Assembly: GCA_030272155.1 (NCBI GenBank) | Contig: CP126191.1 | Coordinates: forward strand, 3,184,501 to 3,248,500 | Length of the DNA: 64,000 nt | From: Tetradesmus obliquus | Taxonomy: Eukaryota; Chlorophyta; Chlorophyceae; Sphaeropleales; Scenedesmaceae | Direction: 5' to 3' | In this document: positions 46,636 to 54,100 of the stretch, piece by piece | How the letters are laid out: every line of letters begins with the position of its first letter | Numbering within the stretch: position 1 is the first letter of the stretch | Translations under genes and position numbers: made by a program | The notes under the pieces: generated by a model | The model's input: the letters and a program-made list of their open reading frames with translations, nothing else | Told to the model about the DNA's origin: nothing | The model's database searches: none

Positions 46636-49600
46636 ATGGAGTACTTCTGCTGTGACTGCTGCAATGACATGCGCCCGCTGGATGCCTTGCTGGACCTGGA
46701 CTGCCACTGCTGCATCTGCACTAATTGCTGCGATGAGCGGCTGCGCCCATGCATGAAGCCAGTGCAGCCAGCACCAAGCACAGCAGCTGCTGTGTATGCA
46801 GTGGGCGACGCTGTAAGGTACGCGCCACATTTCCTTCAGGAAGATCTGCTCCCTCTCCTGCAAAAATGCGAGCCAGTGACTATGTGTACAGCACGCATGC
46901 ACACCTTGTGCTGCAGGCAACCTCCCGGCAACTGCCCTGGTTTCCTGCTCTGCCTTGCAGGTACAGGCAGCGGGACGGCAAGCTGTGCTTGGCTAAGGTG
47001 GTGCAAGTTGACAGGTCCATCCAGCCGTGGGGCTACGGCATTGAGCTGCAAGGCAACCCAGACACTCGCTTCACTGAGGGCAACCGCCTGCTGCCGCAGC
47101 AGTTGAACAGCGAGTGCCTGCAGGAAGGTACGTGCAAAGCACAGTGCTGGATACTCCTGGACATACTTTACATGCGCCTGTAGCAGCAGCTGCCATGCAC
47201 GGCAGTCCATTGGTCAGGATTTCCCTCGCCTCCTCATTCATGCAGCATTTCTGTCTCGCGCTTGCAGGATTCCCTGTGGTGCGCTGCCCCGAGTGCAGCA
47301 GGCAGCTGGACAGGCAGCAGCTGGCGCGCATCCTGCCTGATGCCCTGCAGCAGCTGGATGAAGCTCTCACTAATGCCTGGCTAGATGCAAAGCGCATCAT
47401 CCGCTGCCCAACACCAGGCTGCGAAGCGCTTATTGAGAAGGTGCCAGCAGCAGCAAGCAGCAGCAGCAGCAGCCGGTGCACATGCAGCAGCAGCAACGGA
47501 CCTAACAGCAGCGGTGGCACCACCTGCAGCAGCTGCCAAGCGCAGCACAAAGCAGCCAACCGCTACCGCTGCAGCGCGTGCAGCAACAGCTTCTGCTCAG
47601 GCTGCAGGACAGTGCCGTACCATGAGGGTCTCAGCTGTAGAGAAGCCGCCGCGCCCTGCTGCCCCTTCTGCGATGTGCGAGTGCCGGATGCAGCAGTTGT
47701 CATCACTGGGGACATGAGTGTGCGGCAGCTGAGGGATGCAGCCAGCAGCTTAGGTGCGGACTGCAGCTGGTGCCTGGAGCGAGGGGAGCTGGTGTCTGTG
47801 TACAAGCGCGCAGCGCAGGTGTGCAGCCGCAGCCGGGTGGTGACAGCAACCACCAGGCATGGCTGGGAGTGGCACTCGGGCAAATACACTTGCGTGCATG
47901 ATGGCAGTAGCAGTAGAGCTTGCTGGGCTGCTTGCGTGTGCGGCAGGCTGCGTGGAGGGCTGACAGCTTAGTTGAGGGCGTTGGCTTGCAGCAGGAACGT
48001 GAGCAGTTGCTGCGAACAGCTGTGCAATATCAGACGCCAGCTGACACTGCTGTTATTCACATATGTTGCTGCTGCTTTTGTTCAACAGGTGTGCAGCAGT
48101 GGCAGCTGCAGGTCGCGGCTATCAGAGCTGTGCACACGGCAATTGCCCTGCGGACACTTCTGCTGCGGCGTGCGGGGCACCAGCCCATGCCTGCCCTGCC
48201 TAGTGGAAGGCTGCAGCAGCCAGGTAATGCTTGCACAGGATTGCTGGCGCCTGCGACGCTGCAACAACAGCAAACAGGGCATTGTTGCAGATTACCATGG
48301 TGTTTACTTGACGCTGCTGTAAAAAACTCATTCGCCCGGCATTTGGGCAGCTGTGTTTTACCTGGCACCATTTGCGCAGCAAGCTTACCCCTTCCTGCTG
48401 CTTCTGCTTTGCTGTGGTGTTCTACTGCAGGCCAGCCAGGCAGGTGATGGCAACTGCTGCTTCTGCTTTGAGCCGCTGCCCTTTGCTGCGGTCATCGCCT
48501 TGCAGTGCCAGGCTGGGCACTTTGTGCACCTCTCCTGCGCCCGCAAACGTCTGCAGGTGCGCTGATTTGCGCAGGGCGCACTGCTCGTAGCTCATAGCAG
48601 GTGCATGAGTGCAGAAGCAGTGTGCTGTACATGCCTGTTACCATGCCCTGCCCTCGGCTGGTGCTGTCAGACTACGACAGGGCGCATTGCCCACATATGT
48701 AGCTCACATACATAGCTGCTGCTTAAACTTACTGTTGCTGCTGCAGGTTGGCTGCCCTGGGCCTGCCCTCACGTTTGACTTCCTGTTCTGCCCCATGTGT
48801 GGCTCTGGCAAGGAGGGGCGCTGCGGCAACATCCAGGTGGGCCGCTAGGGGCAGGCAGCCAGGGCATGGTTGCTGGTGTCTCGCGTGCCTGACAGCTGCC
48901 ATGCAGGATGAGCCAGTCATCCTGCTGTTGCGCTGTGCATGCTGGCAACAGGCGTTGGTTGCCTCAGGCGCTTGCGCTCATTGGGTCTCCTTGTGCAATT
49001 GCTGCGCGCAACATGCGTGCACTGCCTGTGCGTGCAGGTGATGACTGCGCAGCCCCACCTGCAGCATAGCCAGCTGCAGGCAGCACTGGACAAGCCGCTG
49101 CGTATCAGGTGAGCCGAATCTCGCAGTTGAAGCAGACGAACCATGTGACACTGCTGGTGGCTTTCAAGGCAGCCCTTACATTGGCAGGGGGGTGCAGCTG
49201 TCAGTAAGTCTTCAACGTTCCCGTACGTGTACTGCATGTGTGTCGTGCAAGCTTCTGTTCTGATGTGACTGGCCCGGCTGCTGACGCGGCTTGTGGTCCT
49301 TACACTGCCCTGCACCCCGCACCAGGCAGCACGTCGTGCAGCTGGCCAAGCAGCGGCTGAAGCTTGAAGGCGCTACAAAGCGCGACAGGGAGCTGCAGCC
49401 TGGTGGCAAGTTTGACGGCAGGCCTGTTGACTGGGCGCTGTCTAAGTATGTGTTCTTTGAGTGCAGCAAGTGCCACCTGCCGTACTTTGGAGGTGCACGG
49501 GAGTGCGGCGCTGCTGGGGATGCACCAGGTGGGGGACAGGCACTTGCTTGGCTGTGTATTGCTGCAGATACGGATGCTTGCTGTGCCTGCCTGCCAGGTC

Positions 49601-50275
49601 TATTGTGCACCCAGAGCTGTTTGATGCGCTGGAAGGGAGCTGCGCCCTAGCCTTGCGCTATTTTGTGCACCACTAGCACTACATAAGGCTGTTATGGGGC
49701 TGTTCTGGTGGCAGAAGCAGCAACGGATTGATGACGCAGCCTGCTAATTGCGTGTCCTGTTGTGATCCATGCAGCGGCGTATGATGCCCAGGAGCTGGTG
49801 TGTGGCAGCTGCTCTGCACACGCAGCAGGCAACAACTGCCCTTCACACGGCACAGAGTTTGTCGCCTGGAAGTGCAAGTAAGTGTCCCTGCAGCCACCCT
49901 GCAATTACAGGAGCACAAATTGATCAGTAGTGCAGCGCAGCTGCAGCTTGCATGTGTTGCCGGCCGACTTTGCTTGCACTTTTGCTGTAAGCTGTCGCTG
50001 TCTTGTACATGCGTGCTGTGACATGCAACCCTGATACCGACGTTTGCGGCATGTGTGTCCTGTTGCTGCCGTGACCTGGCAGGTACTGCTGCAGCGTGGC
50101 CAGCTGGTTCTGCTGGGGCAGCACACACATGTGCAGCCGCTGCCACGACTACCCGAGCCAGCGGCATGGCAACCGCTGCCCAGGCATGGGCCGCTGCGAG
50201 CTGACTGTGCCGCACCCTCCCCCGGGTGAAAGTGCATGCCTGGGTTGCGAGGCGTGCAGGCACAAGGACGGGTGA
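46636..50275 (+). CDS. Hybrid E3 ubiquitin ligase: RBR-type RING1-IBR front with MYCBP2-type RING-Cys-relay back
   Basis: Ten exons (46636-46817, 46961-47127, 47268-47818, 48089-48223, 48431-48556, 48747-48836, 49038-49108, 49326-49528, 49775-49877, 50083-50275) give 606 residues. Residues 1-38 are a Cys-rich RING1 start. An SH3/Tudor-like insert (VGDAVRYRQRDGKLCLAKVV) follows, then RCPEC and an IBR (CPTPGC, YRCSAC, FCSGCRTVPYHEGLSC). Next come a SAP-like helix pair (SVRQLRDAASSLGADCSWC) and a Cys-rich knuckle (LPCGHFCCG, CLPCL). Residues 354-415 are a second RING. From about 442 the tandem-cysteine domain aligns with MYCBP2: Cys501 (YFGGAREC) with relay Cys4520, Glu515 with Glu4534, Cys553 (SVASWFCWGSTHMC) with catalytic Cys4572, and His564 with His4583. 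The tail HPPPGESACLGCEACR also matches. No RBR RING2 catalytic centre is present. In MYCBP2 this module passes ubiquitin between two cysteines and esterifies threonine; here that activity is inferred. Confidence 0.88.
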
Positions 50276-51150: not shown

Positions 51151-54100
51151 ATGAATGCGCTCGAAGATACGAATGAAGAGGACGTGTGTGTGTTACTCAC
51201 ACTTGACGATGCCTGCCTGGCAGCAATATTAGGCAACCTGAGCGCACAGCAGCTGAGAGCAGCTGCTGCTGTGTGCAAGAGGCTACTGGCCATCAGCTCA
51301 GCGGACTCTCTGTGGATCAAGCACATCAGGGACACCTTTGGCCTCTGCATTTCAACTGTGAAGGGCGCGCAGCGCGTGCCAGGTGCAGCTCTACAGCTGT
51401 ACAACAGGTGCGCTGCTGCAGCAGCAGCTGCCTGTGGCCCGGGCAGCACAGGTGCAGACAGCAACCGCGTATATGTACAGCAACTCACGATGCACTGCAA
51501 AAAAACAAACTTCTAGTCAATGTGGTACAGCATACACACAGCTCCCTGTATCGCTACTGGTTTCAACTACACAAACCCCAACTTGTCCTGCCACTTGAAC
51601 AGGTTGCAGAAGGCCAAGCAGCTGCCACATGCACTGCCAGCACAGGCGCTGTTCACAGATGGCGGCTGCGACGAGCCATTCGATGCTTACTGGGTGAGCT
51701 CTGCACAGCAGCAGGCCAGCCAGGAGCACAGCAACAACCCCAGCAGCAATGGGCAGCTGTCTTCCTTACCAGTGCATGCATATTCCAGGATTACTCAATG
51801 CAATTTTTGCACAACATGGCCAACACAATGAGCAGCATTCACGATTGGCTAAGAGCTAAGCTGCACCAGAACTTGCTTCATGCATTTCGCATGTGGTTCT
51901 TTGCAATGCAGGCGGGCAACATGTTCAGCAGCAAGCGCGCCGCGCTGTACTGCAGCGAGGCCAACACCCGCAACATCCACGTCTTCGCTCGGCTGTGCCC
52001 TCCTGGAGACAGCACCGCAAGTCCAGAGGAGCAGCAGCAGCAGCCAGCAGAGGAGCGCAGGCAGTTCTTGCTAGGCAGCTGTGCTCAAGCTGCGCGGCAT
52101 CTCATCAGTCAGCGCGTGGTAGACGCACACGAGCAGCTACGGCAGACTGACAGCATGCAGCAGCAGCAGAGCGCGGCTGGGCGCTGGAGGTCTCTCACCC
52201 GGCTGGTGTGGGAGCGTGTGCGGCCAGCTGACAAGCTGCGGGCTGCGACTGCAGCGCTGCAGAGCTGCAGCACAGAAGGTGTGCGGAGCAAGCCAGTAGC
52301 CGCAGTGCCTGGTGAAGTGAAGGCAGCATGATTAAGCGCATGCTTTCTTACTTGGGTGTCTTTGTGCAGCGCTGAGTACGCCCGTTTTGCGTGTCCTGTG
52401 AAAAGGTTTGCAGATGCATGTCCTGTTTGCTGCCCGCTTCATGCGCAAGCACCACTGCTGCACAACTCAAAGCACACATACACAGCAGGTGTCGTCATGC
52501 AGTGGTGCAACATTGCATCCTGATGCAAAGTTTTGTAGTCACAACACATCTGCAGCACGTGATCGCGCCCTTGCTGTTGTCCTTCTGCCTGCAGGCCTTG
52601 CAGATTTCATGGTCGCTGCCTACATGGGCCAGCAGCAGTACGCAAGCTGGGCACGCTCCCTGTTCAGCGGCCTGAATGATGAACAGATAGCGCATGTAGG
52701 TTATTCTGAAGATGCAAACATGCCTTTTTATGCATCCTTGAGACACAGGCAATATGCTGTGCCGCAGAGTTGCTTGTGTACACATGGCTTTAGGCGACGG
52801 TGCTGCCTGCATCACAGCAGCGCAAGCATATATGCGTCTCACTCTTGTTGGCTGTGCAGATGGATGGAACTTGCTTGCGTGCGCGCACAGCAGGCACCGC
52901 AGCCAGTGTTGCCCTGACTCCGTGTCTGTACTGAACACTGCTGCTGCTGCTGCTGTTGCTGCTGCTGCAACAAATCAAACTTGCCGGCAGGTGCACGAGG
53001 TTGCCTTTCAGATGTGGAGTGAGATGATGGAGCCCCCGGCCCGCCACAGCTTCCTGCTGCTGCCCGCACCACCGCAGCCAGCGCTGCTGCCAAACGCCCC
53101 AGCACCAGCTGCAGCAGCAGCTGCTGCAGCCCCAGGCCCCAGCAGCACTGCTCCTGGCGCAGCTGCTACTGCTGCACATGGAGCCGCACAGCAGCAGCAG
53201 CAGCAGCAGCAGCGGCGCCTGCTGTGTGCTAAGTACCAGCTGGAAGCAATCTGCGGAAATGCCTCATCGGCTGAAGGCACATGTGAGCAGCCTGGGGGCG
53301 CCGGCAGCAGTCCTGCAGTGCTGTGCATGCATGCATGGCAGTGTCTGTACACTCCTCCTTGCGCAATGCATTCAGTGTACTGGGGCCTGCTGGTCGTAGG
53401 CCGCGGCATACCCTCTGTCTTGCGTCAAACAGGCTCACCTCGTGCGAGCAAAAGTCATAACATGCCCTGCTTGCATGTAGTCAGCATCCAAGCAAGCAAC
53501 TTACAGCCGATGCTCCTCGTGCTGCTGCTGCTGCTGCTGCTTCCGCCTGCTGGTACAGACATTGTGCAGGAATGCATCCTCGCGAGAGATGGCATGAGCG
53601 GCAGCACCTGCCCCGTCCGCAGCGGCTTTGTCTTCCTAGGTCACTATGCAGGCGCCACATCTGCAGACCACAGCACTAGCCTGCTGCAAGCAGGCAGCAG
53701 CAGCAGTGGTGGTGGTGGCGGTGATTTGCTGCTGCACCGCCCAGCAGCAGGGGAGGATGCGGTACGTGCAGCAGCAGCAGGCGAGCAAGCTGACGCTGCT
53801 GTCAAGGTGCTGGCAGCAGACCTAGGTGGCATGGTGCACCAGCCGTGGGTTGCTGCTGCGGCTGACCTGACTAGTGCGGCTGCAGTGCACACAGCAAGCC
53901 GCGCAGGCCTGCTGCCGCCTATTATCGACTATGTTTCGTTTGGGGGAGGCGATGGTGCAGAGTACATAGAGTTTACAGCACCCAGCTCGGAGCAGGTGAG
54001 GCAGCAGCAGCAGGAGTGGGTGGCGCTGTGTGGCGGCAGCAGCAGCAGCAGCAGGGGCAGTGCAGGCGGTGATGGATCGTGGCCGGCACGTGGCTTGCTG

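Follow-up and report, generated by a model that had tools for sequence, protein, structure and literature searches.

Within the window, i.e. the whole stretch of 64,000 nucleotides of the Tetradesmus obliquus genome that was analysed, a gene was rebuilt from the DNA at 46636-50275 on the + strand. It has ten exons and encodes 606 aa plus stop; the start ATG lies at 46636, the TGA stop ends at 50275, and 9/9 introns have GT-AG borders. The ten-exon model of an earlier interpretation made from the letters alone (the sequence-only reading) was thereby reproduced exactly, and Cys501, Glu515, Cys553 and His564 are found at the positions named there. The features of the gene and its surroundings are listed in Table 1.

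Table 1. Exons of the rebuilt gene with their predicted protein content, and neighbouring features (positions refer to the window).
Feature	Position	Strand	Residues	Predicted content	Basis
Exon 1	46636-46817	+	1-60	Start Met; RING1-like ligands 1-6 (C5/C6, C8/C9, C23, C25, C28, C31); start of insert	Rebuilt model, spacing, in-frame codon usage
Exon 2	46961-47127	+	61-116	Remainder of insert within the RING1-like finger	In-frame codon usage
Exon 3	47268-47818	+	117-300	Last Cys pair of the RING1-like finger (C123, C126); IBR (C163, C168, C218, C221, C226, C229, H235, C240) with Ser-rich loop; weak ARMET_C/SAP-like motif	Pfam IBR and spacing (IBR ligands)
CAG/AGC-rich stretch in exon 3	47440-47598			Codes for the Ser-rich IBR loop; accounts for 59 listed DNA matches elsewhere in the genome	
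Exon 4	48089-48223	+	301-345	Cys-rich linker with CGHxCCG and CLPCL	
Exons 5 and 6	48431-48556, 48747-48836 (intron 48557-48746)	+	346-417	MYCBP2-type RING (C354, C357, C371, H375, H378, C381, C402, C405)	Homology to human module
Exons 7 and 8	49038-49108, 49326-49528 (intron 49109-49325)	+	418-508	Linker region, then start of tandem-cysteine domain with upstream relay Cys501	Homology
Exon 9	49775-49877	+	509-542	Tandem-cysteine domain with Glu515	Homology
Exon 10	50083-50275	+	543-606 and stop	Tandem-cysteine domain with downstream Cys553 and His564	Homology
F-box-like protein gene	51151-51516	+		About 0.9 kb downstream, same strand	Pfam F-box-like, 28.1 bits (cut-off 24.3)

The C-terminal part of the protein was compared with the Protein Data Bank sequences using phmmer. 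Residues 346-603 match human MYCBP2 (5o6c_A, E 5e-44) and align with residues 5-259 of this 263-residue chain, i.e. nearly end to end; residues 350-603 match human MYCBP2 6t7f_A (E 3.6e-43). At E ≤ 1, five distinct sequences were obtained, and the three others have E-values of 0.073 to 0.14. In a MAFFT alignment, the algal relay half and the human module share 41% identity, and Cys501, Glu515, Cys553 and His564 are invariant. The local alignment score of the two is 464. The best score was 70 in 2000 full shuffles and 157 in 2000 shuffles with every Cys and His fixed; since the latter reach only this value, cysteine richness or composition is not the cause of the match. In the aligned region, 28/33 human Cys and His residues meet an identical algal residue. 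Of the five mismatches, three concern His and two concern Cys; one of the latter is paired with a Cys by phmmer. An ungapped stretch of 84 residues of the tandem-cysteine domain, which starts just before its first Cys pair and ends just after His564, contains 41 identities.

Cys501, Cys553, Glu515 and His564 correspond to C4520, C4572, E4534 and H4583 of MYCBP2. When the human sequence was anchored on C4520, it showed the expected letter at 7/7 positions (C4520, E4534, C4572, F4573, F4578, H4583 and F4586). A RING-Cys-relay E3 is characterised by a RING followed directly by a tandem-cysteine zinc domain, by the spacing of its two relay cysteines and by a Glu and a His which complete the esterification site. 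Residues 346-603 have the RING and the tandem-cysteine domain in this order, Cys501 and Cys553 are 52 residues apart as in the human numbering that we assume, and Glu515 and His564 are both present. The change of C4520 to Ser inactivates MYCBP2 according to the available part of PMC12664034. Judged from these alignments, the homology of residues 346-603 to the human module and the conservation of the four catalytic residues are real, as the sequence-only reading had claimed for the C-terminal ~250 residues. On account of the end-to-end homology, together with the matching position and identity of the four catalytic residues, we place the protein in the relay type.

The relay half also differs from the human module. 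Its RING has two extra residues before the first His and a longer stretch behind the last Cys pair (MAFFT), and the loop behind His564 is shorter than in the human protein. With zf-RING_2, the algal RING reaches 14.8 bits, far under the Pfam cut-off of 27.3, whereas the human RING reaches 27.6 bits. For the tandem-cysteine domain, no Pfam-A model was found at E ≤ 10, either with the human module or with algal residues 443-606; the Pfam matches of the human module fall in the RING and just behind it. This silence of Pfam-A may be the reason why the domain has been overlooked. The positions that we assume to form the three-Phe pocket of MYCBP2 read Trp554, Met559 and Tyr566 or Pro567 in the alga, hence the Phe pocket is not kept. 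In MYCBP2 this pocket is said to seat the methyl group of threonine (PMC6769291, available passages). The pocket is regarded as a feature of the acceptor choice of MYCBP2 and not of the relay itself. Because it is changed, threonine esterification, which had been carried over from MYCBP2, is not transferable as it stands, and the residues at these positions suggest that the acceptor choice may be different from that of MYCBP2.

Given the changed Thr-pocket positions and a RING that is weak by Pfam, the protein could be relay-shaped yet no longer a relay enzyme, acting as an ordinary RING E3 or an adaptor. However, Cys501, Cys553, Glu515 and His564 were kept along with 28/33 Cys and His residues. 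Had the relay function been lost, the catalytic cysteines would no longer be held in place, and this reading is considered unlikely.

In the front half, the IBR was recognised by Pfam on exon 3 with 32.9 bits (cut-off 24.3, E 6.7e-8). The score is under the cut-off for three other queries, namely 23.1 for a shortened front, 22.3 for residues 1-300 and 20.4 for the whole 606 aa. In the search of the own genome, the IBR with its in-frame neighbours reached 36.3 bits; matches occurred in 3/14 control genomes, of which none was above the cut-off. An eight-ligand IBR pattern was widened so that the long Ser-rich loop and an additional residue ahead of the His are tolerated; it occurs once (163-240) and in 0/5000 shuffles of residues 117-300. 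For the RING1-like finger, the spacing of the first six ligands was reached by 19/5000 shuffles of residues 1-60. The finger has Cys where the usual RING1 pattern has His, and neither a Pfam family nor an RBR structure matched it at E ≤ 10. An insert of ~70 residues splits it between ligand six and the last pair. No significant relative of the insert was found in PDB, Pfam or elsewhere in the own genome; its part in exon 2 appears Tudor-like by eye only.

Behind the IBR, the ARMET_C/SAP-like motif is non-significant (Pfam ARMET_C E 0.089; CDNF E 1.3). Exon 3 folded alone from one sequence gave a mean pLDDT of 46.2 and a pTM of 0.22, which is uninformative. The linker of exon 4 has no Pfam match at E ≤ 10; we presume that something similar to its CGH and CLPCL pattern stands ahead of the MYCBP2 RING. 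When the 606 aa were searched as a whole, the Pfam matches at E ≤ 1 were limited to IBR and DUF3446 (E 0.5). The NCBIfam search gave no match at E ≤ 1. One RING2-type pattern was tried on the protein and did not match, and no RING2-like family or structure was found for residues 239-352 at E ≤ 10.

From these results, a front half supported by the IBR, with a plausible RING1 and no detectable RBR catalytic cysteine, is predicted. Of the RBR front half proposed in the sequence-only reading, the IBR stands, whereas RING1 is a spacing match interrupted by an insert. The reported absence of RING2 agrees with both searches. The idea that RING2 had simply been swapped for a relay domain was given up: a RING of its own (C354 to C405) is part of the relay half, and the protein would thus have two RING-like modules, i.e. 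a whole RING-relay module behind a RING1-IBR-like front.

Whether front and relay half belong to one gene was judged from codon usage and possible starts. Using a codon model trained on exons 5-10 (only six short exons), exons 1-4 scored 0.088, 0.199, 0.118 and 0.060 in the predicted frame, which was the best of the three forward frames in each case; for exon 4, one reverse frame scored higher (0.12 vs 0.06). Alternatively, two adjacent genes could have been wrongly joined, with exons 1-3 coding for an RBR-like fragment and exons 4-10 for a relay E3 of its own. No profile or structure bridges the junction at residues 300-346, and past its donor exon 3 remains in open frame until a stop codon whose last base is 47971. 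This read-through tail (47819-47971), however, has a codon score of -0.127 compared to 0.118 for exon 3, and since the tail scores as non-coding, the splice at 47818 is supported. The open frames that lead into exons 4 and 5 lack an in-frame ATG. Beyond residue 266, the protein has no Met before M404, which lies within the RING; an additional spliced upstream exon could nevertheless carry a start. TGTAA, the usual poly(A) signal of green algae, occurs in intron 4 (48318), which would fit two genes, but is missing between exons 3 and 4, which would fit one. Its positions (46812, 48318, 49986 and 50923) indicate that the signal is not specific. One gene is favoured because of the codon usage and the missing start before exons 4 and 5, and a wrong joining is improbable.

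The gene lies on C1, one of the 17 contigs that make up the 104.7-Mb genome. Three separate matches to the RuBisCO small subunit were found on C17, a contig of at least 3.0 Mb. This agrees with a nuclear gene for the subunit, as is established for the green lineage. The own genome contains no second tandem-cysteine match at E ≤ 0.5 with either the algal or the human query. Apart from the relay gene, the human module gave only weak hits at E ≤ 1, four in number. Three of them cover the RING part only (best E 3.9e-4), and the fourth (C12:571508, E 0.52) covers residues 124-230 with a stop inside. A front-half match at C3:5683044 (E 3.1e-4) was dropped, as its frame has a long Ser run and no IBR was seen by eye. 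The only match to the Pfam PHR domain in the genome (C9:40207-40398, 26.7 bits, one stop inside) was rejected as a MYCBP2 gene due to an adjoining BTB-like stretch (by eye). No relative was found in viral contigs using the algal tandem-cysteine domain, the alga-human alignment and the human module as queries, and none in bacterial and archaeal contigs; few short peptide patterns were used in both cases, hence these are weak negatives.

As the relay E3s named in the available literature passages and listings are animal, contamination with animal DNA or a recent transfer from an animal was also considered. However, the gene lies inside a contig of at least 10.5 Mb, is interrupted by nine introns and is only 41% identical to the human module, and its front part is without a PHR-protein domain; both contamination and a recent transfer are thus highly improbable.

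It is quite likely that the gene encodes a compact RING-Cys-relay ubiquitin E3 with the following relay. The RING at 354-405 would bind the charged E2, and ubiquitin would pass from the E2 to Cys501, located on a mobile loop, and from there to Cys553. Cys553 would hand it to a substrate, probably to a hydroxyl group, with the help of His564 and Glu515. A role in binding substrate, E2 or ubiquitin is probable for the front part (RING1-like finger with insert, IBR and Cys-rich linker). We infer the fold, the transfer chemistry, the acceptor and the role of the front part, and the mechanism is proposed by homology, following the MYCBP2 accounts in the available parts of PMC9527308 and PMC6769291.

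MYCBP2 is called the first example of a relay E3 in passages of PMC9527308, and a passage of PMC6769291 raises the question whether it is the lone E3 of its specificity. A human compendium names MYCBP2 alone for the relay mechanism in its available part (PMC13061254), and in the corresponding part of a plant paper RCR is mentioned solely as one of the E3 classes (PMC11668491). No algal or plant relay E3 was found among the listed titles and abstract starts on MYCBP2, RING-Cys-relay, PHR, the tandem-cysteine domain and RBR genes in Chlamydomonas or Volvox. As far as we looked, the predicted architecture (RING1-like finger with insert, IBR, linker, RING and tandem-cysteine domain) is undescribed. 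It had been proposed that ubiquitin relay extends to green algae in a new architecture. What holds of this is that a single short green-lineage gene codes for a relay module with the four residues behind an IBR; the RING1 part is weaker. On balance, we lean slightly towards a relay chemistry older than animals, with compact relay E3s in the green lineage in which the relay is joined to RING1-IBR in a new two-RING architecture and has a different acceptor choice. If true, animal MYCBP2 would be a late and giant member of an old enzyme class, and an algal relay E3 would hint that ester-linked ubiquitin is not a speciality of animal nerves. A short relative from the green lineage would offer a natural comparison for the relay and a small construct for assays, and its changed pocket a test of what sets the acceptor choice.

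Among known systems, the RZ-finger E3s RNF213 and ZNFX1 form another zinc-domain class with transthiolation (PMC9527308, available passages); they gave no match to the algal protein among PDB sequences or in Pfam at E ≤ 1. With RBR E3 ligases, the algal protein shares an IBR over the Pfam cut-off on exon 3 and a RING1-like spacing before it. In contrast to them, no RING2 or RBR catalytic cysteine was detected, and RING1 is split by an insert and missed by the Pfam and PDB searches. The PHR proteins (MYCBP2, Highwire and RPM-1) have RCC1-like and PHR domains in a giant chain, whereas none was found in the algal 606 aa (Pfam, E ≤ 1). By its predicted domains, the algal protein is not a PHR protein and, by its catalytic end, not an RBR ligase. 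It has in common with the RING-Cys-relay of MYCBP2/PHR1 (PDB 5o6c, 6t7f) the order of RING and tandem-cysteine domain as well as the two relay cysteines with their Glu and His, but these are placed in a chain of 606 aa instead of a giant protein, behind an IBR and a RING1-like finger and with a changed Phe pocket.
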